From contig OY754465.1 in assembly GCA_963575645.1 (NCBI GenBank), positions 38,466,401 through 38,530,400 on the forward strand: 64,000 nt of DNA, written 5' to 3'. Below are positions 10,959-49,904 of the stretch, piece after piece. The stretch's first letter is position 1; every line of letters starts with the position of its first letter. The stretch comes from Xanthostigma xanthostigma. Taxonomy: Eukaryota; Arthropoda; Insecta; Raphidioptera; Raphidiidae. The position numbers and the translations under genes were made by a program. The notes beneath the pieces are model-generated. The model had not been told where the DNA came from. It made no database searches and saw only the letters and a list, made by a program, of their open reading frames with translations.

Positions 10959-11580
10959 ACCAAAAATTATGATCATAGTGTCATTAGATTCGAAATGACA
11001 CCTAGAAACCTTTTGAAAAATTGAAGTAGAGGACGAAAAAATTGCAAAAGTTATAAACTTTTTAGTAAAAATAAGATGGATTTGGTTTTTTACAAATATC
11101 TCTAAAACTGTTGCAGATATCTGAAATCACAAAAAAGATCCTGAAAGAGCAGGAAATCTCCTACAAAAAAGTCCCATTTCCTAGAACTCTACCACCAATA
11201 TTTCTAATTTTAATTTAGAGGTGAAAATAGGGCTAAACATTTTTTTTCTACTTTTTATATAATTTTCAATATTTTCGTATCTTTTGCCTTGTCGTATAAA
11301 AAATAAAAAAAAAATTATTTCTATTTTCACCTCTAAATTAAAATCAGAAATATTGGTGGTAGAGTTCCGGCAGATGGGACTTTTTAGTAGAAAATTTTCT
11401 GCTCTTTCAGAATCTTTTTTGTGATTTCAGATATCTGCAATAATTTTTGTTATATCCGTCATAAAGCAAACCTCTATTTTTTACTAAAAGGTTTATAGCT
11501 TTTGCAATTTTTTCGTCCCCTACTTCAAATTTTCAAAAAATTTCTAGACATCATTCCGAATCGAATCATAATTTTTGATA
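10959..11580. mobile_element. Fold-back element, arms about 270 bp
   Basis: The left arm (about 10959-11230) and right arm (about 11321-11580) are inverted copies, roughly 85 percent similar by eye, around a 90-bp A/T loop. Matching landmarks include TTTAGAGGTGAAAATAG with CTATTTTCACCTCTAAA, and GATATCTGAAATCACAAAAA with its reverse complement. Terminal sequences are ATTATGAT-like and no target duplication is obvious. Confidence 0.7.
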
Positions 11581-11839: not shown

Positions 11840-12982
11840 AAAACCAATCGATTTATCTTTTTTTTCCAACCGATGGAGTTCGATTCCCTCAAAATATTTC
11901 AGGTGATCGGCGGTTGTAGGGGGGGGGGGGTGGGGGGTTGTATCTGTAAACGGTTTTTCGAGCATATCTCAGCCGGATCTGATCCTACAAAAAAAATGTA
12001 AATGGCGAAATTGAAGAGCTTGAAAAAACACGTAAGTTCATTCAAAGCTGAGCCAGATATCTCAATCCGTTCGCGAAATATCGCGATTTGAAATTGCGAA
12101 TAAACAAAAATTCAATCAGGTTTTTTCGGAAGGGGGTGGAGTTGGGGCCTCAAATTTTTTTTAATAGAAGGGTATCAGGGAGCACTTTAATGGACCGGAG
12201 GGAGGGGGTGGTGGGACAATTAGTTGGGAAGATATGGGCCTGAAACTAATTCAGCGGAAACGCTTATAGTTTCGAAAGTAATTGAGTTAGAGGGTCCTAC
12301 AAGGGCTCATTTTGTTCGTTTTTCTATGAGATAAAAGGTGGGAATGGCGAAAAAATTTATTTTTTGCAAATGCGCAAACACGGCATGCAGCTCCTGATTA
12401 TTTAATTATTATTTACATCTGTCCACTCTAGATTTGGCAGCAGGTTAATTTTTTCGTCATTTCCACCTTTTAGCTCATAGAAAAACGAAGAAAATGAGCC
12501 CTCGTAGGGTCCTCTAGCTCAATTACTTTCGGAGCTATAAGCGTTTCCGCTAAATTAGTTTCAGGCCCATATCTTCCCTCCTAATTGTCTCACCACCCCC
12601 TTCCTCCGGCCCATTAAAGTGCTCCCTGATACCCTTCTTTTAAAAAAAATTTTAGGCCCCAACTCCACCCCCTTCCGAAAAAAACTGATTGCGTTTTTGT
12701 TTATTCGCAAATTCAAATCACGATATTTCGCGAACGAATTGAGATATCGGGCTCAGCTTTGAATGAGCTTACGTATTTTGTCAACCTCTTCAATTTTGCC
12801 ATTTGCATTTTTTTTGTAGGATCAGATCCGGCTGAGATTTGCTCGAAAAACCGTTTACAGGTAAATATAATACGCCCCCCACCCCCCTGCAACCGCCGAT
12901 CACCTGAAATATTTTGAGAGAATAAGGGGGGGATCGAACTCCATCGGTTGGAAAAAAAAATCAATTTTTTTTATTGGTTTTT
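11840..12982. mobile_element. Large fold-back element, arms about 510 bp
   Basis: The left arm (about 11840-12360) and right arm (about 12446-12982) are inverted and about 85-90 percent similar, with an 80-bp loop. Landmarks are CCAACCGATGGAGTTCGAT with ATCGAACTCCATCGGTTGG, and GGGTATCAGGGAGCACTTTA with its complement. The arms carry G-runs on one strand (11919-11938) and the matching C-runs at about 12876-12889. Open frames inside are mirror artefacts. Confidence 0.75.
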
Positions 12983-14686: not shown

Positions 14687-15950
14687 TATCACATTCCGTG
14701 TATGAAGAGCTTCAATTGATGAGTGTTGTGACCGCATGAAAATAAAAATATAGTTCTTTCAATTAAGCGATTTGAATCAGTTAAAAACTGAAAAAAAACG
14801 AGACTGCGGAAGAAATCAAACTTTATGAGGGAATCCATACAATTTGCGTTTATTTTGTTCTTCATTTAGCATTTTAATTATTCAACCACATATCGGTCCC
14901 ATTCTTTGGTAAGCAGTCGGCAGTTAGCTGTAATGTCTGAGTTTCTTTTTTGTGAGTGAATTTGAGAATTATTAAATGAAACACAAAAAAGAAACCCACC
15001 CAAGGTGGGTCCAAATAAACAAAATAAATATTCAAAATTTCTAGTTTTGCAATGCAAGATCAATACATCTAAGAAAGAAAACAAAAACTGTAAATTATGT
15101 ATTTCTTCGATTAATTGTAGTTAACAAATTATTTTCACTTAAATGTTTTGCTTACAAATCACGATCAACGTTTTTCACATAAAATTAAGAGAAAAAAAAA
15201 AACTGTATCAACATATTATATAGAGAATGCATTGTTGCAATAGATTGTATATTTCTGTGGTCGCAAGTAAAAATAACTTATGACATATTAACAAATTTTT
15301 CGTTACCCTCAAGCCATTTTGTTAACTCTATTTTCGTAACTTGTGTATAAATTAATCGTCTCTACCTAAAAAAAATCTAAATCTATATTGCATGTCATCA
15401 CAGTTTTATTAGCCTTCGTAGAGGTGTGTGGGTCAACTGGTCGTCAATTTTTTTCTTGAATAAAATTGTCAGCATCTGCGAAAATGTAATGCTGCAAAAA
15501 CTTCAGAGGAGTTGCGCCGTTATGAGTTAACCTATTTACATTTAAAATGTGAGCTTAGAATAAAAGTGAAAAAAGAGCTAAGCCCACGTTAAAGAGAAAT
15601 GCACTTATTCGGATAAAAAGACATTGCCCAAAGTTTTAGTCATGCCAGCAGTGAGATGACACTAAAACTAGCATCATTTTACCGGACTACTTTTCATATT
15701 TGATTTTTGTTTTCTTTTTTATGTAGTCGAGTTTCAGTTTTTCTTTTTTACTTTTATTTATACAATGCATATATTTTTGGAAACATACCTGTTGGCTTTG
15801 TCACAGTTGGATAATTAGTTGACAATGCAATGGCTCGTATATTACAGTTTCCAAATTCCATTCTGAAAATTGGTGAAAATATCAGTTTAGTTTCATAATA
15901 ACATGTATACTGTTTAGAACAATTTACCACTACTTGACCAGCTTGAGGCC
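14687..15950. other. AT-rich region, nothing recognised
   Basis: Short open frames on either strand (for example 14878-15084, minus) have no family resemblance. No palindrome or array was defined. Confidence 0.45.
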
Positions 15951-15981
15951 CTGAAGATGAAAATAAATTTTTCGAAACGTT
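15951..15981 (+). ncRNA. Compact hammerhead ribozyme core, Penelope-associated type
   Basis: The segment carries CTGAAGA, which fits the hammerhead consensus CUGANGA. It is followed by an A/T hairpin (GAAAA pairing with TTTTC) as helix II, then GAAAC and GTT. Upstream GGCC (15947-15950) and downstream GGCC (15982-15985) can pair as a 4-bp helix I. Helix III is reduced to the palindrome ACGU, the arrangement described for small dimer-forming hammerheads associated with Penelope-like retroelements. Predicted cleavage would follow position 15981. Core residues are all present. No Penelope reverse transcriptase was seen nearby, so the parent element is inferred. Confidence 0.6.
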
Positions 15982-18099
15982 GGCCACTAGCGAAACACTG
16001 GTAAAGCTTATTTTATGATCCTCAACCAAACCTTCCTTCATTTTAATAATAAACTGTCAATATAAATTGTTATTAAGCCCATATAATCGTGGCAGTTTAT
16101 GACGTAAAATGAAAATGAAAAAACTGATTTTAAATTACTATTTTTTGTTGCGCTCGTGCAGTAGGAAGATACCTCGAGGCCTGTGAACCACTTTGTAGTC
16201 TTTTTTTCAACTGCTGTGAAAAATTCACAACTGGATCATTTGTTTTTTGTGTACGGGTTATTGGTTTCTACATCGATTTAATTTAATTAACAACCATTTG
16301 TGTGAACAACGAAATTGCATATAAATAAAATTAGATAGAAAACAAATCCCATTACACATAACATTGGGACACAAGATGGCTGGAAGAAATAATTTATATG
16401 ATAAGGACCGCGGAGGAGCAGAGTGGATCTTTAAAAGAACTAGAAATTCATTTGTTTCGCGGACCATTTCCTGTATTTTGTAATTCACGACCCACAGACC
16501 TTGCCATTAGTATGTGTAGACGTTTTTTAATTGTTCAGTTGTTTGTTGCTGTAACAAACATAGCTAATTGCAGCTGAGAATGCGCTTATAATTAATTTGA
16601 AAGAAAAAAATAGTTTAAACTTGCATAACAACAAACAGGAAGCGACACTATGGTAAATAAAAACAAAATATTCAGTTTTATTGATTCAGATGAAATGAAA
16701 TGTTATTTGTATTTATGATGAAACCATTTTAAAAATTTTAAAAGCATAATATGTTGACTAAGTTATTATCATATATAACTATGTTTTATATTTTAACAGG
16801 AGTTTTTTGCGATAAATTTAAAAATTAAATTATAGTTTTTGTTTAGTTGTATGCATTTTAAATTTAACTGCTGTTTTTTTCGTGCAGGTGACACGGACCG
16901 AAAAAAAACGCCAGTTCTTCACTTCTAAGGCCCTCACAGACTTACGCGGAACAGCGGAAACTGGATAAAATTGTATGGCGGGATATGTTAGCGGGATATC
17001 GCTTGATTGTATTTTTATCCAGCCCTGTTTTTGCTTTTGTTTTAGAACTTACCGTTTCGCGTTTGTCAACGAGAGTTTTAAAGGGGGACGATCACATCGT
17101 CATTAATTTTGTCTTATCGATATATTACCCTAAACCGTTTTGCCTTAAGACCAGAGGTGCGCATGCATATATTGACAGACAGAAGAAAGTGCTTGTAATG
17201 AATAGGTAATCAATGTATAAGTAATTCTAACAATATTCTGTAATGTAAAAAACAAATGTAAATGTACCATAAATCAGGGTGGGAGACGACAGTCCAGTTG
17301 ACACAGAAAGGTACTGTCGTTTTTCTTCACAGATCACTAACTTACCGACTTTTAATATGTGAGGTTTGTTATTTACAATGTTACTATTTACGTCACTGAT
17401 TTGCTTAGAATCATTAATTTAATTATAAGGATTCCGATGAGATATACATCGGTATTTCCGTTTGTTAATTATTCTAAATATATGATGAAAATTTACATAT
17501 TATTGATAGGTAATAAAAAAGTTTTGTCGGTAAACAAGCTCGAAATCTGTACTGGAAAATAAAGAATACCAATCGGGAAAGGAAAATGAGGTTTGTGATT
17601 AAATGGTTTAAACTATTAATAGTACAAATTTTGTGAATATACAAGGACAACTCTCATTTACGGAAAATATATCGACGTTTAACTCCTCATGTAGAGAACA
17701 TCTTCAGTTAAGGACTTTCACGGAACCGTTATAATTCCATCATGTCCGTCCGTCTGTTTGTATATCACATAACTCCGTCATCTTTCCATCGATTCGAATG
17801 AAATTTTACAAACAGGTATCTTATGTGAATCGCCATTCTACTTGTGTAATGAGATTACAAAAAAAAATAGGAGTAGCCTTCCTCCAACAGACCTGAGGGT
17901 ATCGTTGCAATAAATGTTCTCAAATGACTTTTTTTCTTAGATGAATAATTCCAGAGATATAAGCTTCTAAAATCGTTAATAATATTTGCAAAGGCGGTTA
18001 ACAAGGGGAAGCACGGAGATATTTCAGCCAACCTTTCATGCCATATCATTAAATAATATTTTTTTTTTCATCTAATATATCTTAAGTGTCACCGTCTCT
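15982..18099. other. Mixed AT-rich region with repeat scraps
   Basis: No gene was recognised. A patch at 16860-17050 (GGCCCTCACAGACTTACGCG) looks like a transposon end but lacks a partner. At 17735-17830 there is a TCCGTCTGT-rich block followed by ATTCGAATGAAATTTTACA, a scrap of the dispersed repeat seen at 34045 and 49020. Confidence 0.4.
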
Positions 18100-21346: not shown

Positions 21347-24300
21347 TCTACCAAGTGCCGAGTGAAAAATCAGTGCAAATTATGCTTAAAATATTTCTGG
21401 GTCTCCACTATAGATGTAGAAAATAATTATAACTTGTCAATAGGGCAGTCACTTTCGCTCCTGCATTTGCATGAAGCATATGATTATTTAACGATATATG
21501 ACGTGAAAATTTACCTTGCATTTCCGTCAATTTGCAATAAATCTAGCTCCCAGCTGATATGACATTGCATAATAGAAGATGCTGACGGAAAGTATCGTCA
21601 GGTTATGAAATATGTGTGCGTGTATGTTTTATCACAGTTAAGTGCAGTAACAAAACGATAATGTTTTTAATTAAATATTTTAATTTTTGCTGAATGATTT
21701 TGATGAAAATGTTGTCTTTCGTATCTGTATAACGATAGTAAAATTTCTAGTGCGTAATGGAAAGCAAAAAAAATGCGATTTTACCAATCCAACAATAATT
21801 TCCAAAAAGCGACCGGTCAGTTACCGTTTAATTCTATAAGATGAACAGAAATAGCAAATAGACACAATTATAGCGGGCGTATTTTTCGTATAAACCGCTC
21901 AAATGAAATGCAATATGACCGCACACAGTGCTGACACAAGCTGTCAGAAATAATGTTATGAAGTGAATATCAGTAATTTTACAGGACGTATGTTTTTGGG
22001 GAAAATCCGCCCATGTGCAGCGTAGATATATGCTATAACGTTGTTTTTTTTTACATAATAATGGTATAATATTCATAACGGTTTATTATTCTTTTTATTT
22101 TTACAAGAAAGTTTTGTAAACATTTTTTTTCTAAACTTTATAGTTTCGAAAATATTTTGAAAATAAAATAAAACAGCTGTTATTTTGTTCTGTCGATCTG
22201 TCAGACAAAAATTAGCTAAGCATGCTTTGATTAATTTTTACATGACGTAATAACATATTATATAGATAACCGTGCAAACTAATAGCAAATATCATAATAT
22301 TTAATACTAGCCGTCATCCGTGTCATCGCACGCCTTAACAGAAATTCTATATTATAATACGTCAAATGTTAATATTTTTGAAGTTCGAAGGGTTCCGTCG
22401 CTCAATTAGCTGACATTTTTTTCCTATATAAGCGCCTGACGATAATTTTCTATTGAATTAATCTTAAAGATAATTCATTTAGTATCTTTTAAACTCTTTG
22501 AAGCAATTTTTTATATTATATTCTGTGTATTTAATAAAAGCTCCCCGAGCTATGGAGTATTTTTTAAAGAACAATTTTGGAAAAACAGAAGAGTCAGTAC
22601 GACCCAAAAAAAGAATGGATATTACACATGAGTTTAATGTCATCCTCCAATATCAGTGATAATAAGTTACAGAATATATTTTTCAAAATTGATCACACAA
22701 TGTGTAATGCCTTTCCGGTTATTTAATTTAACTCGGTCCGGCCTAGATAATGTGTTAAATTACTCGTTTAATTTTTTTAAATATTTCTTTTGATTATTTA
22801 AATCACGCAAGAAATTATTTTTTTCCTTCCGTACAAATTACTTCTTAAGTAATATGAAATTCCTCAGACAATATTCAATATGATTAATTATTCAAATGAA
22901 AGTTGTCAATTTTTTATACCGCAAACTCAATTATTATAGTGCAACTATAATACATACATTTTATCTTATATGTGTTGAAAAAGTACTATGATTGACACCA
23001 AACAACAAATTTCAGCCAATTGGGCGACGGGACCATTCCAACTTCAAAAATGTCGACATTTGATTATAATAAAGAAAATAAAATTTCTGATATCGCGTGA
23101 GGTGACGCGGGTAATGGCTAGTATTCAATATGATATTTGCTATTCGTTTTTGGAGAATTAATTATAGGTCAGCTTATGGTTTATTACTACTGTTGGAATA
23201 TGAAAATTAAACCCCTAGACAGATTTTTATAGTACCTACCATAAATTTTATGCATCAGACAACACTGGAATAGGAACACATTGAAATAGAATTTATTCGT
23301 GGGCAACATTTAGATCAAATCCCCGAGTAAAATGTACAATGTCCTTTGTCTTGTTATCCTTGAATACGTTACATTAGCAAAATGAGTTATTGCTCTGTGT
23401 TAGCGACAAGAAAAAAGTGAATGTCACAGTTCACTGTCATTTAAGTTAAAAGCATGACGACTGTCAAATTGGAAGGCCGCAGGTTCAAGGTTTGTTACTT
23501 ACCCCTTTGTGTTAGGTTGTTAAAAATAGCTGTTGGTACTGGAATGTCACATGTGATATTAAATTATTTGTTTCTTTTTATAGAACATTCGCTTTTTGAC
23601 TTGGCTTCGCCAGGGTAAATTTTTAATTTGATAGTGAAATAATCAAGAGCAACAAATTCTCATACGTCACTGTATCTATTACAGTTTTGTCATCAACTCA
23701 GCGTACATTTCAATAAAAAATCGCGTGCGGCATTTTAGATTGACATTTTTGTTCACCGCCCATCTCTCTTTTGTCGTAACGTATAATATGATTATAGTCA
23801 ATGTTCTTTGGCTTTTAAGGAGTCACATCTAAATGAACGCATTTAAAATGAACGTTATTTTAATATTTTTTGAGGGTGTACAAAGCTAAGAATTAAAAAA
23901 AGGAGGCGTGTTTTTTTATTGACTACTTTTGTTTGAAAAATAATTAAAAAAACATTTATAAAAAAGAATATATTATACTAGTAAGTATAATGAGATTTTT
24001 TTAAGGTATTTCTGAAAAAATGGCGTCTCACTGGTCGATATCACAACTGTTCGAAATATTGATAAATCTGAAAAATTCACGAAAAATATTGTGCGTATGG
24101 AGTTAATTTTTTATGACAGTTTGAATTTAATTTATCTTTTTTAGCCAAATGGTTCATACATCTTAAAGATAACCTTACTTTATAATAATCTTTTGAATTT
24201 TTCAGACCCATCAATATTACGAGCAATTATCATGCCAACAGTGAGGGGTCATTTTTTAACAGTATCTTAAATCTCATTATATATATTATATATTGTGCTA

Positions 24301-26150
24301 TACAAAAATGTTTTTAATTATTTTTTAATACATATATCAGTAAATAACATGCCATTTTTATTTTATATAATTTTTGACACTGTACATCCTAACAAAATTA
24401 TTAAAAACACTTTCATTTTTAGTGTATTCAGGTAGATTCGGCCCTTTTAATAGTGAATAAATTTTTCTTAACTGTTCTATAGTTTCCAAGATTATCCGCG
24501 ATATACAAAATATATACAAATTTTTTCTTTTAATAATATTAGTATAAAATATTAACGAAAATCTACTTGAAATATTCATCCGAAACCCGAAACTTAGGGG
24601 TTCCTAATGGACATACCACAACATCTTCATCTAAACAACGGCATAGTAACGATTGTGGCTATCGTTTAATCTTATAGTTGAATTTGAAGTGTGCAAATAA
24701 ATTTAAAGTTTTATTACAAAATGTATATGCGAAATGTGTAGCATCGCTCCAGACTTGTCACGTGGTTTCTAAAAAATAACAATTTCAAATTTTATCCGTT
24801 TTTAAATTGTCGCACATAAAAAAAACGTAAGTGCATATTTTATTGTATTATACTCAGAGCCAAAATTAAATAAGTCATCACTTATAAAATATATTACCTA
24901 ACAAATATTTATTAGGCACATTTATATAATATAGTAACTCATTTAAATTGTAGCTTCCAATTTCCTTAATTACTTTATGTTCGCGCTACATTAACTGTAT
25001 AATTTTCTTTTAAAAATTGTATATATTTATTTAAGTTTCGACGATTTGAATTACAATAGTTATAATAGAGAAATAGTAGAGAAATGCAGAAATCTCTCCT
25101 GCGGTGTGATCGTATCATTTACATTGCAGCTGTAATAATAATATAGGCAATAATGTAATGTTATTGTAGTGATGCAAACATCTGAGATAGACGTGGTCAA
25201 CATTTTACCGTCAGGTGTCAAATATCATCTATACACTATACCGGCTGTTTCATCAGGAGTGCGACATAAGAGATTTATATGGCGTTACATGTTTTTGTGA
25301 TGTAGCGTAATTCTTGTCACTTGGATGGTTCTTTGCTATAGTTGAACCCGGTAGGTGGCGCTGTTGTCGGATCCAGATTTTGTTTTATAATTTTCCAATG
25401 AAATTTTTATTTTATATTTTTTCTTGGATTTCTCACATAATAAAACATATAATCTCAAATTTTCAGCCTCCCACCACCTCTCAATAATTTTTTGATATTC
25501 ATGACTTATTAAATAATGAGTCTTTCATTAACTGACCGTTTGCCTACCAGGTCTGCTATTCTATAAAAAAAGTCTGATGGAGCATAATATGTCTGTTTAA
25601 AAGGTGATCTACAATCCGAGCGAAGTCGGACCGGGCTGCTATAGTATATTATATAACGTAACACTGTTATTGTTAATGCTGAATTGTGCAGCAATTGAAC
25701 AATTACAAAAAACGACTACAAGGATCAGGAAAATGTTTGCCAAGTTTTGTTGGGTTTCTACGCATGCATAAAAATTATTAAAATAGGAATAATGTAGGTA
25801 TTCGTTATATGAATCTCAAATGTCTTTGTTCCACTTCCCAGAGGAAAATAGATTCGACAAATATATCCTCATTTACCCTTGCTCTGATTCGAATTTTCAG
25901 CGATACGCTTGCATAGAGTTTTTCATCTCAGTTTTACTAGGAGTTGAAGCGCAATAATCTATTAAATTACGAATTAATTTTAAAAGGAATCATATTATGG
26001 TCATAAACATCTTGTAACACCACAAAACACCGCGCGTATTCGTTTCTGTTCAGTTACATAAATAGTTACAATGCGATATTTTTATACAGTTCTTTCTTCG
26101 TTTTTCAATGGGTTTCTTAAGCTTGAAATCTTGTGGGACATATGGGTCAA
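21347..26150. other. Long AT-rich region without supported gene
   Basis: Contains scraps of the dispersed repeat family (22980-23110: CCAATTGGGCGACGGGACC and ATATCGCGTGAGGTGACGCG) and one copy of a CCGGACGAAGCCGGACCGG-like module at 25611-25636. Short frames such as 21834-22076 and 24358-24579 (both minus) have no resemblance to known proteins. No exon, tRNA or rRNA was seen. Confidence 0.45.
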
Positions 26151-29954: not shown

Positions 29955-30345
29955 TATTACTTAAACGGTTCAACACAAGAAGATTTCATGTTTGAATGTT
30001 TGATAATTTCGTTGTCATTAATAAATTCTATAGGCTGGGATGAAATTCCAATTAAAGTGTTAAAATATTGTGCCCATATAATTTCTTATCCACTCAGTAT
30101 AATAAATAATAATAATTGCTTTGAATAAGGCATTTAGCCCGATAAGTTGAAGAAAACTATTGTCATATCGATTTATAAAAATAGTGAGAAGTGTATCACA
30201 TCCAATTATAGGCCTATTTCTCTGTTACCAAATTTAAGCAAAGTTTTTAAAAAAATTAAAAAATTCTTAATCCAGCATGCAAATTATGTACTTGGTTAAG
30301 AAACGATTTTTAAAATGACGCAATTTATACATGTTATCGTCCAAA
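29955..30345 (+). pseudogene. Jockey-type LINE reverse transcriptase relic
   Basis: From about 29985 the plus-strand frame gives GWDEIPIKVLKYCAHII, then PDKLKKTIVISIYKNSEK and SNYRPISLLPNLSKVFKKI. This is the start of the reverse transcriptase domain of jockey-like LINEs, where the usual order is G-D-IP-KLLK, FPD-LK-A-V-PI-KKG and NYRPISLLP-FSKIFEK. Stop codons interrupt the frame at about 30126 and 30135, and the catalytic YADD region is missing. It ends within about 50 bp of a (TTA)n run and a palindromic element, which probably truncated it. Confidence 0.75.
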
Positions 30346-30356
<11 letters not shown>

Positions 30357-30376
<20 letters not shown>

Positions 30377-30379
30377 TAA
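30357..30379. repeat. (TTA)n microsatellite
   Basis: About seven TTA/ATT units follow the reverse transcriptase relic. It could be a simple repeat or the tail of an adjoining retroelement. Confidence 0.7.
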
Positions 30380-30703
30380 ATAAATGAACGAATTTAAAAA
30401 AAAAGTTTTTATTAGTTGTCAATAAAAACGTTAAAAATAACTTTATTTTGATTAGAAAAAAACCGTTTTATATGTACTTATCACAGTCTCAAGTTTTCAA
30501 ATAAAAGCGTGTTACACCCTCGTTATTTCTTTCTTGCTCTTAAAATGTAACCGCTTTTATTTGAAAACATGGAACTGGGATAAGTATGTATGTATGTATA
30601 AAACGGCTTATTTCTAATCGGAATAAAATTATTTTTAACTTTTTTTATCAACAACTAAGAAAAACTTGTTTAAAAAAAAAACATTTTTTTCGTTTATTTA
30701 TAA
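30376..30703 (-). mobile_element. Palindromic element, copy 1
   Basis: The unit is an imperfect palindrome: TTTTATATGTACTTATCACA and AAGTTTTCAAATAAAAGCGT on the left are mirrored on the right, with outer TTTATTAGTTGT and AACAAC-AAGAAAAAC-TG ends. It matches copy 2 at 49351-49650. On its right flank (30703-30787) the sequence continues with GTGTGCTTTATTC and a CCGGACGAAAGCCGGACCGG module. Copy 2 has the same continuation in the opposite orientation, so the palindrome is part of a longer element. Confidence 0.65.
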
Positions 30704-30787
30704 GTTTTTAGTGTGCTTTATTCAAAATGTGATTGGCATCCGGACGAAAGCCGGACCGGTTCGTTAGTTATTATAAATATTGTAATC

Positions 30788-30935
30788 TTTGATTAACGTC
30801 TGATTAGAACTCTTCAATAAATAAAATTATCGACCAATTTTTCAGACAAATATATTAACAAAAAATATAAAAACACATAAAAATTAATACATTAACGTTT
30901 CAGTGCGGATGTGGACATTCTTCAGAACTGATCTA
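30788..30935 (-). ncRNA. Eroded hammerhead-bearing element arm
   Basis: On the minus strand, CTGAAGA (30919-30925) and GAAACGTT (30894-30901) are the two conserved hammerhead core strands, 17 bp apart. Helix II between them is degenerate, so cleavage is doubtful. The left flank (AATAAATAAAATTATCGACC) is the same arm as in the palindrome at 33781-33970, showing both are copies of one family. The right arm is largely lost. Confidence 0.4.
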
Positions 30936-31276
30936 ACAAATATAAAAATTAATTAATAATTAGTTTTTAATTGGCTTTTGAAAAAAATTTGCTTTAATTT
31001 TTAGGTAAGAGTACGATAACTTGCTATGCAAAATATCCACTGGAAATTCACAATTTTATTGGTCGTTTTAAGTGCGGAAAATTAATTTTTAGAAATTAAT
31101 TTAAAAAAATTAAATAATTATGGTATAGTAAGTTGAGAGTATATTATTTACTATAGCGATCGCTATCTTGTCTCATATAGTGATAAGAAAAGAGAAAGTT
31201 ATATATACCTGTATCTATGATAAACAAAGATAGAAATATCAATTGGTTGGAATGAAATACAATTGAACGTTCAGGG
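30936..31276. other. AT-rich stretch, nothing recognised
   Basis: No gene or repeat defined between the hammerhead relic and the minisatellite-bearing element. Confidence 0.45.
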
Positions 31277-31722
31277 CAGAGTCGTATTTGGAAATTTTAA
31301 TTTATAAAACGAATTTTAAATTTAAAACTCACATTTTCATGAAGATTGAAAACCACCGCTTTTTTTGATAAACGGGTATGCGAATTGTCTCGCAGTCAAA
31401 CGGGAAGGGACAAATGTGGAGTTTTTAAAAAAACAATTCCGGGGTGAACGATAAACGGGTATGCGAATTGTAATTCTGGGGTGAACGATAAGGGGTATGC
31501 GAATTGTCTCGCAGTGAAACGGGAAGGGGCAAATAATGAGTTTTTAAAAAAACAATTCCGGGGTGAACGATAAACGGGTATGCGAATTGTAATTCTGGGG
31601 TGAACGATAAAGGGGTATGCGAATTGTCTCGCAGTGAAACGGGAAGGGGCAAATGTTGAGTTTTTAAAAAAACAATTCCTGGGTGAACGATAAACGGGTA
31701 TGCGAATCTAAATACGACCCTG
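31277..31722. mobile_element. TIR element carrying an internal minisatellite
   Basis: The ends CAGAGTCGTATTTGGA and TCTAAATACGACCCTG are imperfect inverted repeats. CAGGGTCGTA is also the start of the hAT relic at 60143, so a hAT affinity is possible, but no 8-bp duplication is visible here. Most of the interior is a 120-bp tandem repeat. Confidence 0.55.
31367..31708. repeat. 120-bp minisatellite, 2.85 copies with internal sub-repeat
   Basis: The anchor GTCTCGCAG recurs at 31387, 31506 and 31626. Each unit contains GATAAACGGGTATGCGAATT twice, 60-90 bp apart, separated by GGGGTGAAC blocks, so there is a sub-repeat within the unit. Copies differ at only a few positions, which points to recent expansion. 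Because the unit is nearly a multiple of three, a 103-codon open frame exists on the minus strand; it is a repeat artefact. Confidence 0.8.
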
Positions 31723-31989
31723 CTTCCATAACACAATCGAAAGCTGCATACAAACTGAGATAGTTATACAATAATTCTACACCAGCTGCTATGACGTGTA
31801 TTTGTGATTTTTGATTGGTTACATTCAAAAAATGACAGTGAAAGACGAAAAGTAGTTCCATTTTTTTCACGTATTTTTGAGGAAACTTGTGAATAATCCG
31901 CAAAGTTTTTTTTTTTTGAACGTCAAAATTTAGTGTTTTCTATGACTTAAAAAAAAAATTTCAAAATTTGGGTGCATAGTGTTATCGTA

Positions 31990-32115
31990 CTGGACCCCTA
32001 CATACGTATGCAAATGATCAACTCAATCTGAAACCGGGAAATGGGTCAAATTTAACCTCCAAGATTTGATTTCAGACAGACAGACACCGAGACAGGTAAA
32101 ACTAAATGAAAGCTT
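31990..32115 (-). repeat. Minus-strand copy of the dispersed TCTGTCTGT repeat
   Basis: Read on the minus strand: TACAAGCTTTCATTTAGTTT, GTGTCTGTCTGTCTGAAATC, AGGTTAAATTTGACCCATTT and TTTGCATACGTATGTAG. This is the same order as the plus-strand copy beginning at 48990. Confidence 0.65.
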
Positions 32116-33063
32116 GTAAAAATGTATAATATACCTCCTATGTATTTTGTAAAGAAAATGTTAAATATTTTGTTTCACTCAGTATAATATTTACATATAT
32201 CGATTTTCGATTGTCGTGGTTTTTATGTATTTTAAATAAAATAGGGCAGAATGTTAGGAGTTCTACAATAATAATAATTAAATGTTTAATTGTTAAATTC
32301 TTAACATTCTGCCCCACATTATTTAAAATAACTGAATCACGATGAAAAGTGAAACCGATAAATCTAAACAAACGTACGTAATGATTTTCACTATTTTATA
32401 AATGGCAATCAGTGTTGAGCAGGAATTAATGCCAATTATTCAAATTAAACACAAAGAAAGTGCAGTATGAATTTCGCATACGTGTTTAAAGTAAAAGGAC
32501 ATTTTCTTATACAATGCGATCTAAAGAAATGCTAGAGTAGGCCTTAGAAAATTTATTCGATAGTTAAACTATATAAGATGACCAGTAATTACTCGTATTC
32601 CTCTTGGGAAAAGAAACTATGACTAATTTGGAATGATTTAGCCTCTATCACTTGGGGTCGAAAATACGTTTTTTTTATAATGTCGCTTCTGTGAAAAATT
32701 TTTATTTTATTTTTTTTTAATTTATTGTTAGTTTTAACACACAACAAAAAATCTAACAGTAAATTTCGTGGTTTTTAGCTTTAGGAAGGATAATGATTTG
32801 CCTGATGATCAGAAACCATTTTTCCCTTTACTATGCTTATCAAAACGAATACCTATAATAAATCTTTAAAGGGAATAGTTCCGTGCCTATCTGTTTATTT
32901 GGTCATAACTCTTAAACCCCATATCCGATTTCAATTAAATTTGGTACGCTCTTCAACTCCTATTAGGCGATATTATATCAGATTTCGCTCGCGTTAAAGT
33001 AGGACTCCCATACAAATAAAAGTATATTTTATATAAAATCAACAATTTTTGAAGAGATATTTT
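32116..33063. other. AT-rich region with a small inverted repeat
   Basis: GGGCAGAATGTTAGGAGTTC near 32245 is mirrored by TTCTTAACATTCTGCCCC near 32296-32316, giving a short hairpin. A repeat scrap at 32895-33005 carries CGATTTCAATTAAATTTGGT and TCGCTCGCGTTAAAGTAG. No gene seen. Confidence 0.4.
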
Positions 33064-33239
33064 TGACGTGATAACATCTTATAAATTGATGAAACACCGG
33101 CTGCACGCACGAAAAAGTGTCACGTTCCGCCTGAGCCTGAGCGTGCAAGCGAGAGCGCGGTATAAGCGATAGAGAGGCACGATCGGCCCAAGCGTCGGCT
33201 TGTACGCATTTCAATTTTTCTTTATGACGTTATCACGTA
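33064..33239. mobile_element. Miniature inverted-repeat element with GC-rich core
   Basis: TGACGTGATAACATCTTATA at the left pairs with TATGACGTTATCACGTA at the right. The core (GTTCCGCCTGAGCCTGAGCG and AAGCGAGAGCGCGGTATAAG) is far more GC-rich than its surroundings. It is non-coding, and the target duplication is not clear. Confidence 0.6.
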
Positions 33240-33780
33240 AAACTATCGTCCGTAAACCGACTTTACAGACAACCAATTTTTGTTATACTTAAAGGGAAAA
33301 CATGATTTCAGAATTTTTGTTATACTTAAGGAAAACCAGCATAACGAACCGATGTTGAGAAATTTATTTAAACTGGCTTTTATAAAAAAAACTCGTCTAA
33401 CGATTTTTCCCAATTAAAAATGTTTTCTAGATAGTTTTTAACAGTACACTTATTTAATTAGTATTCTTGTATCGGTTCGGGATTAATTTACACATTGCTG
33501 CACAAAATAACAAGTACATACTATAATTGGGAGGCCACGTAATGTCATTATATTCTGTATAACAGCTGTATTTATGATTAAAAAAAACCGCAGAGTAAAT
33601 TTAAATGATAATGCTTTTAAAGTAGGAATAATAACAAACAAATGAAAGTAAAAAATAACGTGAATGAGATAATAATATTAAAACGAAATCAGCAAACGAG
33701 ACTTGACATGATACAAACATAAATCGTCAAGGCGTAAAAACGAAGAAATGATATAATCGATTTTTAAGATGCTTGCTTAA

Positions 33781-33970
33781 TAAATAAAATTATTATCGCC
33801 AATTTTTTAAGATTATAATATATTGACAGAATTTATAAAATTATAGTTCAATAGATGACGTTTCGGTCCCCGATTTGGAGTCTGTTCATCTATTGAATTA
33901 TAATATTTTTATAACTTTTGTCAATATAAATATAGTCTGAAAAAATTGGTCGATAATTTTATTTATTTGA
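33781..33970 (-). mobile_element. Palindrome with a hammerhead-like core at its centre
   Basis: The left arm (33781-33858) and right arm (33886-33970) are inverted copies: TTCAATAGATGA faces TCATCTATTGAA, and AAAATTAT-CC-AATTTTT faces AAAAATTGG-ATAATTTT. The 27-bp centre, read on the minus strand, gives a GACTCC-AAATC-GGGGAC hairpin followed by CGAAACGTC, the helix II and GAAA side of a hammerhead. The 5' core is diverged (GATGA in place of CUGANGA). In this fold helix I would be the whole arm. Confidence 0.55.
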
Positions 33971-34044
33971 AGAGCTCTATATTCAGACGTTAATCAAAGA
34001 TTTGAATACTTGCTTAATGTCAAGCCTCATCATTTTTAGATTTT

Positions 34045-34170
34045 TTTTATATCAGTCGATCAGTCTGTCTGTCTGATTTCAATGAAATTTGGTACACGTA
34101 GTATATAAGGGCTCATCAACTCAAAGGGAAGACTACATTATCCGGTTCGCTCGCGTTGATATATTATAAT
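34045..34170 (+). repeat. Dispersed repeat scrap with TCTGTCTGTCTG block
   Basis: CAGTCTGTCTGTCTGATTTC, AATGAAATTTGGTACACGTA and TTATCCGGTTCGCTCGCG. The same combination appears at 32895-33005. It is non-coding. Confidence 0.5.
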
Positions 34171-34569
34171 ATATAAAACTTTTTGTTGCCACAGGGAAAC
34201 GGCTAATAAAAAGTGATGGTTTTCAATTTTGATTGAGAGAAAAGGTACATTGTGTTACTAGCATAGAACATTGACGATTGTGAACGAGGGTGGCGCAGTC
34301 GTCAATTTCGCTTAAGTAACACATAGTGCTGTTGTTATACATTGAAAGAACAACACTAAATATTTACAAAAACACCGTAAATGGATATTGTAGAATAGGC
34401 CGAATTATCAAAAGTAGTTTAGGAACATCGCCTAAGATGGTGCCACTTTCGCTTAATTTCGATTCGAAAAGGATTTCCCAAGGACTTTATATTTTATATC
34501 ATTGGCACCAAGCGCAAACTTCCCGTTAAACAAGCAGAAAAGAGACTGTATTTTACACTGTGCACTACA

Positions 34570-41940: not shown

Positions 41941-42662
41941 ATGCTAAGAACACGCGTTTTACATACATTTTTTACTTAAATTTATAACTCAGATCTATAG
42001 TGGCGTGTTTAAGTCGGACGAACATGTAAATATTTTGAAAAGAAACAAGATTACCCCTCCCCCCCATTTTCAAGGATGCGGAACACGGTGATGTAATTAA
42101 AATTTCTCTTTGTGGTTGTGCAACCCTTCAAAATAACCAAAAACCACCCCCTAAAAAATGTTTTTTCCTTATTTTTGAGGATGCTGAGCACGGTGGTGGT
42201 TATGAAAATTGCCGCCGACTCTCACCAACCCCTCCACCGGCCAAATCTCAGAATCCTCTGAAACGGGAAGATAACCCAATTTTTCTGGTGATACGAAAAC
42301 AAAATCACCCGTTTCGGAGTTGAGATTTGGCTGGTTGATGGGTTGGTGAGAGTCGGCGGCAATTTCCAACAACACCACCGTGCTCAGCATCCTCAAAAAT
42401 AGGGAAAAAACATTTTTTCGGAAAGGGAATAACGTATACCTATTGCGCGTTTAAAGGGGAATTTATGGCCGTTTTGGGAGTTCCGCAGCCTTAAAGAGAA
42501 ATTTTAATATCACCACCGTGTTCCGCATCCTTAAAATCAGGGGGGGGGGTAATCTCGTTCCGGCTCCAAATATTTACATGTTCGTTCGACTCACACACGC
42601 CACTATTGATCTGAGCTATAAATTTAAGTAAAAAAATAATGTAAAACGCGTGTTCTTAGCAT
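41941..42662. mobile_element. Fold-back element, arms about 350 bp
   Basis: ATGCTAAGAACACGCGTTTT at the left is mirrored at the right end (AAAACGCG then TGTTCTTAGCAT). The arms match along CAAGGATGCGGAACACGGTG, GAGGATGCTGAGCACGGTGG and GCCGCCGACTCTCACCAACC, with the symmetry axis near 42280. C-runs at 42056-42065 face G-runs at 42541-42550. It is non-coding; the apparent frames are mirror artefacts. Confidence 0.75.
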
Positions 42663-44992: not shown

Positions 44993-45892
44993 TTATCTTT
45001 TGTTTTTTTTTTTAAATATCGCAAATATTTTTAGATATTCATGCGTTTTGCAAATTTTTTTATGGTACCTACTAAGCTCTTTTTGGGTCGTTTGGAATTA
45101 GCCGAACTTATTGAAAACGCAAGCTGAATCGATTCCAATGATACCCAACTCCGTGTCTCTTTTAGTTTCAGAAGTAAGAGCGTTTATATTTTTTTTTTTT
45201 AGAAATACATACCGGTCAAAATCATAAACTTCTCTTTTGCTTCGCAGTAGTCGGGTAAAAATTTAAAATTTCATTATGTCTAAAGAAAGGTGGGAGTGAT
45301 CATAACCGATTCAGTGCGATTTTTTCTGTAAGAATAACGTTAGCTGTAAACAATATAATATATACCTAAACAATAGGTAACAGATTTTTGCACAGTGGGG
45401 CATACATAATACAATATTTTCGGGGGCATGAAGGTATACAGAACAGGTATCTTCACAAAATAATTGATGCCTATTGTCGTTTTAGCTTGGATGCGCGATG
45501 ATAAGGATGTTTTTACCAATATGACCGCCGAGCCCAGATTTATTGGAAAATCGTGCCACACTTTGAAGTGAAAGTGATAATTCAGTGTTATCTATCTGTA
45601 TATCTTCTTATTTATATTGTATGATATTTCTGTAAATATTAAAGGAAAATGGACTATTTTTGATATATATCTACAGTTTCCAACAGTCACAACAGATCCC
45701 TCATTTCGAATTTCGTGAATTAATCGGCATTTACAAAAAATCTTTGATGTTTAATTATTATTTTAACTTATGGGGCTGTGAACCGATTTTAATCACTTTC
45801 ACCCTCTATATATCTGAAACCTTTCCTACGCTCAACTTGAAGTTTTTTGTGATTCACAAGGTATTCATTATCATCATTCATTATCATTGACT
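44993..45892. other. No gene recognised
   Basis: AT-rich. The frames at 45340-45561 (minus) and 45660-45890 (plus) have no domain or neighbour support. Confidence 0.4.
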
Positions 45893-46089
45893 GAAGGAAG
45901 TTTTTGGAAGAATCCATGGCAATAGGATCAATAAAAAGCAATACTGAATTTAAAATTGCATTTTTTCATTAACGTTTCGGTACAATTTGTAGGTACCATC
46001 TTTAGTTAGTAATAAATGCAATTTTAAATTCAGTATTCCTTTTTATTAATCCTATTGCCATGGATTCTATCAAAAACTCCCTCCAATAG
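45893..46089 (-). mobile_element. Palindrome with a central hammerhead ribozyme-like core
   Basis: The left arm (45893-45970) and right arm (46006-46089) are inverted copies: AATCCATGGCAATAGGATCA faces GGATTAATCC-type and CCTATTGCCATGGATT sequence, and GAATTTAAAATTGCATTT faces AAATGCAATTTTAAATTC. The 35-bp centre on the minus strand reads CTAAAGA, then a helix II with GGTAC paired to GTACC, then GAAACGTT. Relative to the CUGANGA consensus one base differs (A for G at the third position), which would be expected to weaken cleavage. Helix III is the minimal ACGU palindrome. Confidence 0.6.
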
Positions 46090-46789
46090 TCTTCAAGGAT
46101 CGTTGCTCTATTTACTTAATTAGAGTCAAATTCAAATTTTTATTGACACTACAAATCAATAAAGAAATTTTTAATCTCCAAATGGGCTAGAAAAAATCAC
46201 CGTTTTTGGAGCCACTTTTTGTTCAACTTATCTCGGGGACAACTGTATTTTATCTAGTTTTTTGTCTCATATGTCCCACTGTGGGTTGCACTTATGAATA
46301 CATACTTGTAAATTATATCCATGCACAGTCGTCGTTATTGAACTGAGAATCTAGTAGTGTATTATTGTCACGTACGTAATGACACCTGACAAACAGTACC
46401 ACCTGTCGAGTGTGTAAATCTCACTTGTATTGTGGAAACTTTAATGATCACACAAGACACAACTCTTTGCAACTGACCATTTAAACAGTGTAGTACAAAA
46501 TCTTCGTGACTATTTTAACATGTTTTGCGTCAGACGAATTCGTTGTGGTTTCATGTTTATAGAAATATCGACACCTGAACTCGTAGGGGTTCCACTTTTT
46601 TATGACGTCTGTAGCTCATCTACGACAAATTCCCAATTACGTTTGAATACTGATTTTGAAATTAGAAAGTTTCCCATTATTTTTTCCCCTCACCTAGTTC
46701 TAAAATTGCAAAGCTAATGGCGAAAGAGTTTTTGTAATATCTTTAAAAACAAGATTGGTATTTATAAACTTGACACCTTATACCTACTA
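46090..46789. other. No gene recognised
   Basis: AT-rich, unassigned. A frame at 46520-46717 has no family resemblance. Confidence 0.4.
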
Positions 46790-49350: not shown

Positions 49351-49650
49351 TTTTTAAACAAGCTTTTATTAGACGTTAAGAAAAATGAACTAAAAAGTAA
49401 TAAATAATTTTATTTCTAGTAGAAATAAGTCGTTTTATACGTACTTATCACAGTGTCAAGTTTTCAAATAACAGCGTGTTACATTTTAATAGCACGAAAA
49501 ATAAGACAGTGTAGTTCACGCTTTTATTTGAAAACTTGAGACTGTGATAAGTACGTATAAAACGACTTATTTCTACTTGAAATATAATTATTTTTAACTT
49601 TTTAGTTCATTTTTATTAACAACTAATAAAAGCTTGTTTAAAAATTTTTT
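49351..49650 (+). mobile_element. Palindromic element, copy 2
   Basis: TTTAAACAAGCTTTTATTAG at the left faces CTAATAAAAGCTTGTTTAAA at the right. AAGTCGTTTTATACGTACTT and TCAAGTTTTCAAATAACAGC are mirrored closely. It matches copy 1 at 30376-30703 in sequence and in having the CCGG-bearing flank on one side. Confidence 0.7.
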
Positions 49651-49702: not shown

Positions 49703-49904
49703 GGCCTAGTTTATATGAGAGGCGTTCAACGCGCGTTGGCCCAACGCGCGTTTACAATTTCTAATTTCTATACAACTGTATATAACTGTTTACACGATAA
49801 CGCGCGTTATCATGTAAACATTTATATACAGTTGTATAGAAATTAGAAATTGTAAACGCGCGTTGGGCCAACGCGCGTTGAACGCTCTTCATGTGTGCTA
49901 GGCC
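49703..49904. mobile_element. Near-perfect 200-bp palindrome rich in AACGCGCGTT
   Basis: GGCCTAGTTTATATGAGAGG at the left faces GCTCTTCATGTGTGCTAGGCC at the right. The arms then match almost base for base through AACGCGCGTTGGCCCAACG and ACAATTTCTAATTTCTATAC to a central GATAACGCGCGTTATC near 49801. AACGCGCGTT or a half-unit occurs five times. There is practically no loop. TTAA lies near each end (49697 and 49905), although the left one is 2 bp further out. Confidence 0.75.

Follow-up and report, generated by a model that had tools for sequence, protein, structure and literature searches.

Minimal type I hammerhead ribozymes reportedly sit in the pLTRs of Penelope-like elements (PLEs), as Cervera and de la Pena in 2014 and Lunse et al. 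in 2017 are said to have described. In the parts of the PLE literature considered here, insertions carry two pLTRs inverted head to head, of which one has a tail, together with target duplications of 8-10 bp and introns (PMC3846280, PMC11167929, PMC11722881); the available part of PMC11722881 describes spliceosomal introns in pLTRs and says nothing further on a hammerhead split by one. In an in vitro study of PLEs that includes PAc (PMC11167929), both target strands are cut and extended, starts are internal and fall mainly 111-118 bp into the ORF, the tail matches the sequence separating two start sites, and the start site shows no difference between strands; the ORF there begins at stem II of its own hammerhead. 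The role of the minimal hammerhead in PLEs is called 'still a mystery' in the portion of PMC7761336 considered, and the corresponding portion of PMC3846280 leaves the origin of inverted pLTRs open.

Here we consider a palindrome in a 64,000-nucleotide stretch of the Xanthostigma xanthostigma genome (the window), in which a first-pass annotation had described a hammerhead-like core within a long palindrome. Both are present (Table 1): inverted arms of 75 nt (45892-45966 and 46011-46085) are 91% complementary across a 44-nt spacer that holds the core strands, and the unit aligns to its own reverse complement at 80% identity over 199 columns. The 197-bp palindrome that had been taken for the whole unit exists, but the insertion is longer (250 bp, with no ORF), as it is bounded immediately on both sides by the 6-bp direct repeat ATTGAC; six letters agree at this spacing in only 0.07% of window positions. 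The left arm stops at position 75 of the probe made from this unit, the same endpoint as that of tailless arms elsewhere, while the tail stretch on the right arm is matched by other copies on one arm, up to probe position 101-133. The unit has inverted head-to-head pLTRs inside one insertion, only one of which bears a tail; a spliceosomal intron in the pLTR is seen at family level (in A, to which the unit belongs, and in C and D), the unit's own 5' end being too short to show it either way. The proposal that this is not a standard Penelope pLTR is not supported, because inverted pLTRs, one-sided tail, duplications and introns are all already described for PLEs. The window unit was correctly observed and is a degraded representative of a known kind: with a probability of about 0.85, we interpret it as a pLTR-only PLE insertion in which one internally started cDNA per target strand was joined head to head to the other.

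Table 1. Coordinates and strands of the features discussed, in window positions.
Feature	Position	Strand	Remark
Whole inserted unit, two pLTR pieces inverted and joined head to head	45892-46141	.	arms plus flanking ATTGAC
Target-site duplication, left (ATTGAC)	45886-45891	.	identical to 46142-46147
Target-site duplication, right (ATTGAC)	46142-46147	.	
Tailless arm, pLTR 3' part	45892-45966	- (sense strand of the arm)	ends at probe position 75
Second arm	46011-46089	+ (sense strand)	
Tail, about 50 nt, confined to second arm	46090-46141	+	outer end fixed by the duplication
Decayed hammerhead core	45971-46005	-	covariance-model match, 17.2 bits, E 0.033
Second head-to-head pLTR palindrome, family B	33782-34008 (33772-34018 with repeats)		10-letter CTTGCTTAAT on both sides
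Family-C hammerhead, top window match	15945-15987	+	51.6 bits, itself a model seed
One-armed family-B copy, CTGAAGA core	30775-30931	-	model match 30888-30931, 23.1 bits, not a seed

The ribozyme at the centre of the unit is degraded. On the minus strand it reads CTAAAGA (46005-45999), T, GGTAC, a 9-nt loop, GTACC, GAAA (45978-45975) and CGTT (45974-45971), with CTAAAGA standing where CTGAAGA is expected. The altered base is G5, which is essential to the hammerhead. The match to our covariance model (described below) covers only positions 10-37 of 43, and neither an intact core nor helix I is found: in the predicted fold the arms are paired, and TAAC pairs with GTTA next to the core, engaging the cleavage site as well as the first base of the core, in place of hammerhead helix I. 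Helix I had been equated with the entire arm; the arm does pair, but it is this TAAC/GTTA fold beside the core that replaces the helix. The window copy is mutated and probably inactive; C3 and G8 hammerhead mutants lose cleavage in PMC11167929. The nearest relative of the window copy (L009) has a near-identical joint and a mutation in the first base of its core, yet scores 44.7 bits. An Rfam scan of the window gave no family at gathering score, and permissive Rfam searches of 45700-46300 and 30300-34300 returned microRNA-like hairpins and other weak matches, with no hammerhead among them.

At the level of the family the hammerhead is real: CTGANGA, GAAA and NUH are present, and both helix I and helix II covary. 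Across the genome (623 Mb in 28 contigs) the exact motif CTGANGA...CGAAACGTY occurs 17,380 times (8,625 forward, 8,755 reverse), whereas its reversed pattern occurs 18 times, roughly a thousand-fold excess. For a hand-chosen alignment of 18 ribozymes from several subfamilies, the covariation score is 0.899 compared with 0.228 (sd 0.038) in shuffles, none of 500 of which scored as high; 88.7% of helix cells are paired, against at most 50.5% when the alignment is slid, and both-sided changes occur at four helix I positions and at three of the four stem II positions. The covariation and the motif excess bear out the hammerhead origin of the core. The covariance model built from these 18 ribozymes (seeds include L020 and L034 of family A) has three matches in the window with E < 0.05. 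The highest-scoring, from family C, keeps an intact CTGAAGA core and a helix I in spliced form and is not mentioned in the first-pass annotation of the palindrome; the one-armed family-B copy has an unspliced-looking 3' splice site upstream of its core.

The 197-bp unit finds at least 93 matches in its own genome (40 of 445 candidates were scored). These lie in the window and at 39 further places, every one of which we examined. Family-A hammerheads match the model at E <= 0.05 in 34 of the 39, a figure that includes the two seeds L020 and L034 (the exceptions are L017, L018, L021, L044 and L047). A simple hammerhead pattern is seen in 26 of the 39, and 24 of these have CTGAAGA, the core for which the first-pass annotation had suggested looking. 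It had also conceded that the idea would fail if no other copy kept both core strands or if the arms came from unrelated insertions; other copies do keep the hammerhead, and the arms share a single insertion, as set out below. The two 'copies' it had named at 33781 and 30788 are elements of the same kind, although they belong to a different subfamily (B).

How are the copies laid out? Read on the sense strand, family A consists of exon 1, AAACT, the core with an overlapping ATG, stem II, GAAACGTT and an arm running to CCAATAG, sometimes followed by a tail of about 50 nt. Two arms are present in 30 of 40 places (the 39 plus the window; L020, L022, L024, L026, L028, L034, L037, L039, L043 and L046 are not two-armed), and the tail is found on exactly one arm in 26 of the 30, on neither in 3 and on both in 1 (binomial P 3e-5 for 26/30 against one half). 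Tails were scored by hand, a value of at least 101 counting as tailed and one of at most 90 as tailless, with L011, L017 and L031 borderline; at L045 a piece of tail lies about 800 nt away. Family C, probed from L070, behaves in the same manner: among 11 head-to-head places (L066 and L067 being one place), exactly one tail is present in 8 of the 9 that can be scored and none in the other, L071 and L080 being unscorable since the match ended at 50. The tail statistics cover families A and C.

Direct repeats of at least 6 letters (range 6-11) flank 11 of the 30 two-armed family-A units, compared with 2.6 when the right flanks are shuffled. The script found no such repeat in the other 19, which include the window copy, unscorable in this way as the source of the probe; its ATTGAC repeat was found separately. 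These shared repeats support the arrival of both arms in one insertion. In the family-B palindrome of the window, a damaged core lies at the centre and a tail is seen by eye on the right arm only.

The head-to-head arrangement is also evident in a sample chosen independently of palindromes. Among the first 100 pattern matches listed, neighbours within 1.2 kb form 19 divergent pairs, where 0.5 are expected, 0 convergent pairs and 2 tandem pairs. An inverted partner on the 5' side (E <= 1e-3) accompanies 18 of the first 30 matches, or 14 of 26 distinct places. The joint itself may precede the ribozyme (for example L066, L075), interrupt it (L055, L062) or follow it (L069, L071), so that central placement of the core is not a rule: the core is central in the window unit because the joint happened to fall there. 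The window has other long self-reverse-complementary stretches of 68-91% identity (11858-12959, 41941-42662, 10983-11566, 23827-24437, 49351-49644 and 49703-49904). A direct-repeat array at 31371-31707, its repeats spaced about 120 bp with about 95% identity, keeps frames open along its length.

Such a unit most probably arises as follows. An RNA running through the pLTR would be reverse transcribed from internal starts about 107 and about 157 nt past the ATG that overlaps the core, the estimated positions of the family-A arm ends. Each of the two cut target strands would prime one cDNA from a different start site, leaving a tail on one arm and the other arm tailless. The cDNAs would extend toward the 5' end of the RNA, halt in or near the hammerhead, and be joined head to head, possibly via a short shared sequence, to give a palindrome flanked by short target duplications. 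The hammerhead is a pLTR component that comes to lie at the centre of the palindrome through the position of the joint, and a pLTR-only palindrome is the product to be expected of internal starts on both strands. Priming on both strands, the use of short shared sequence at the joint, the loss of activity in this copy and the kind of enzyme that moved family A are what we infer. The 3 tailless units and the 1 two-tailed unit among the 30 count against the scheme, as do the 19 units in which the script scored no repeat, the failure to find the family-A pLTR on any ORF-bearing element examined, and the many unspliced copies, though the spliced copies do mean that spliced RNA was copied. Because the start site did not differ between strands in vitro (PMC11167929), that study gives no reason to expect a single tail in each pair, which would be an addition to the PLE mechanism if the rule holds. 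We did not find it as a statistical rule in the available parts of the PLE literature, where PMC3846280 notes a tail on one inverted pLTR; among the papers listed by a text search on this layout, PMC3846280 alone dealt with transposons.

It is instructive to ask whether one cDNA could have made both arms. A single cDNA or antisense template might fold back, perhaps via the hammerhead stems, and copy itself; this kind of self-priming is proposed for PLE inverted repeats in the part of PMC3846280 considered, and brief annealing within the hammerhead (for example at AAACT in L010) could account for the joints. A folded-back copy should have arms with equal ends, however, and exactly one tail is what we see in 26/30 (A) and 8/9 (C) units; for this reason we set the model aside, and one cDNA per target strand fits the one-sided tail better. 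In its antisense-template form, self-priming also predicts retained introns, while spliced copies are common. Altogether we regard it as unlikely, though it deserves more weight than the readings that remain. Hammerhead-cleaved RNA as the main template was also rejected: judged by eye, arm ends show no exact pile-up at the cleavage site, although such a template is possible for L021.

Two further accounts dispense with a PLE altogether. The first-pass annotation had pictured a separate, non-autonomous family in which the mobile unit is a ribozyme hairpin and the arm serves as helix I, and the recurrence of palindromes with a hammerhead near the joint, seen in the inverted partners of those first 30 matches, is what one would expect of it. 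But the PLE tail, the target duplications, the intron and the ATG overlap all point elsewhere, the joint varies in position, arm formation does not require the ribozyme, and PLE hammerhead mutants insert unchanged in vitro (PMC11167929), which together make this account very improbable. Still harder to sustain is the idea of a foldback or MITE-like DNA transposon with a merely fortuitous likeness to a hammerhead at its centre. Long inverted arms, AT-richness and short flanking repeats would suit it, whereas the covarying helices and the motif excess speak against chance, the outer ends are unequal where such a transposon should have symmetric ones, and the flanking repeats vary in length. Spliced genomic copies reveal an RNA step, and together with the covariation we judge them to refute this account.

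The splicing just mentioned involves the ribozyme directly. Three families (A, C and D) have an intron whose 3' end lies 3-7 nt upstream of the ribozyme core, with 3' splice sites TTYAG|AAACT (A), TTCATAG|GCC (C) and TTACAG|AACACT (D) placed before the last nucleotides of helix I. Among the examined loci, family A has 14 spliced copies and 10 with the 3' splice site, and 5 match the 5' splice site; family C has 15 spliced, 6 with the 3' and 2 with the 5' splice site; and family D has 3 spliced and 1 with the 3' splice site. This scoring allowed one mismatch (two for the family-A 5' splice site), and rows at joints, such as L016, L032, L066, L080 and L085, are borderline. Under a strict definition, 23 of 88 ribozymes have a T-rich YAG 2-8 nt upstream of the core, compared with 3 of 80 control CTGANGA motifs. 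Distal helix I is contributed by the spliced form, as GCATTT/AAATGC in family A and as GCT/AGC in family C.

These observations raise the question of whether splicing licenses self-cleavage. Exon 2 would start with the proximal few nucleotides of helix I, and the distal stem and internal loop would come from exon 1; with helix I split between exons, an unspliced RNA could not assemble the complete ribozyme. In such an RNA the 3' splice site, through its pyrimidine tract and AG, would pair with CTGAAGA and mask the core, and the spliced and unspliced genomic copies would be fossils of the two states. Under a looser splice-site rule, the core strand is predicted to pair with the splice site in 26 of 37 unspliced copies, compared with 8 of the 54 remaining ones; formation of hammerhead helix I is predicted for 7 of the 37 and 22 of the 54, counts in which related copies are not independent. 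Controls put the masking in perspective: of 37, the mean is 19.9 (15-27) with introns swapped between families, 14.3 (8-19) with a generic T-rich YAG, 11.4 (8-14) with shuffled intron ends and 6.6 (2-13) with random AG-ending sequence. Since swapped introns reach the observed value, much of the masking follows from any good 3' splice site. We put forward only tentatively, as somewhat short of an even chance, the combined proposal of an intron inside helix I whose splicing licenses self-cleavage, with the two target strands primed from different internal starts. The listings of text searches that did not extend to the 2014 and 2017 papers named above contained no description of an intron-interrupted hammerhead.

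The genome also encodes candidate machinery. GIY-YIG has at least 37 matches (150 of 521 candidates were scored), and a reverse transcriptase and GIY-YIG occur in a single frame at L108 and in two frames at L104. Hammerheads of the same kind lie near 5 of 15 GIY-YIG loci, in four distinct places (L098, L104, L105 and L107/L109), and so stand beside GIY-YIG/reverse-transcriptase genes of other families. They belong to other subfamilies, and some have TTTCAG just before the helix I nucleotides. A pattern search of 3-5 kb stretches found no hammerhead at L108 or in the abundant L110-L113 family, and no ORF-bearing element with a family-A pLTR is among the GIY-YIG/reverse-transcriptase loci examined.

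With thousands of copies, this genome bears both on the role of the hammerhead and on the origin of inverted pLTRs. The tail on one arm and the spliced copies favour two cDNAs made from sense RNA, one per target strand, and a ribozyme-interrupting intron in several families offers a cheap test of splicing control over cleavage. Two results from around the window unit are worth testing: that the tail is one-sided, and that an intron interrupts the ribozyme.

How, then, does this locus compare with described systems? It resembles the PLEs with minimal type I hammerheads (PAc, PMC11167929), with which it shares ACGT in place of helix III, an ATG over the core (families A, C and D), internal starts, a tail, head-to-head inverted pLTRs and AT-rich targets. 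The window unit differs from them in having no ORF and a mutated core, and the families here differ, as far as the available parts of that literature go, in the intron in helix I and the one tail per pair. The animal retrozymes, in the part of PMC7229834 considered, are likewise short, non-coding and low in G+C, with a type I hammerhead and many copies; retrozymes are arranged in tandem and, in invertebrates, have a longer helix III, whereas here helix III is ACGT and the 2 tandem pairs among the first 100 matches listed are far outnumbered by divergent ones. Penelope of Adineta vaga, as far as the accessible portion of PMC3846280 describes it (its main text there has 0 mentions of a hammerhead), shares the inverted pLTRs, palindromes at joints, a tail on one pLTR and intron retention, along with target duplications, which are 8-10 bp there. 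That element has a low copy number, full ORFs and a self-priming model, in contrast to the thousands of pLTR-only copies seen here, many of them spliced.
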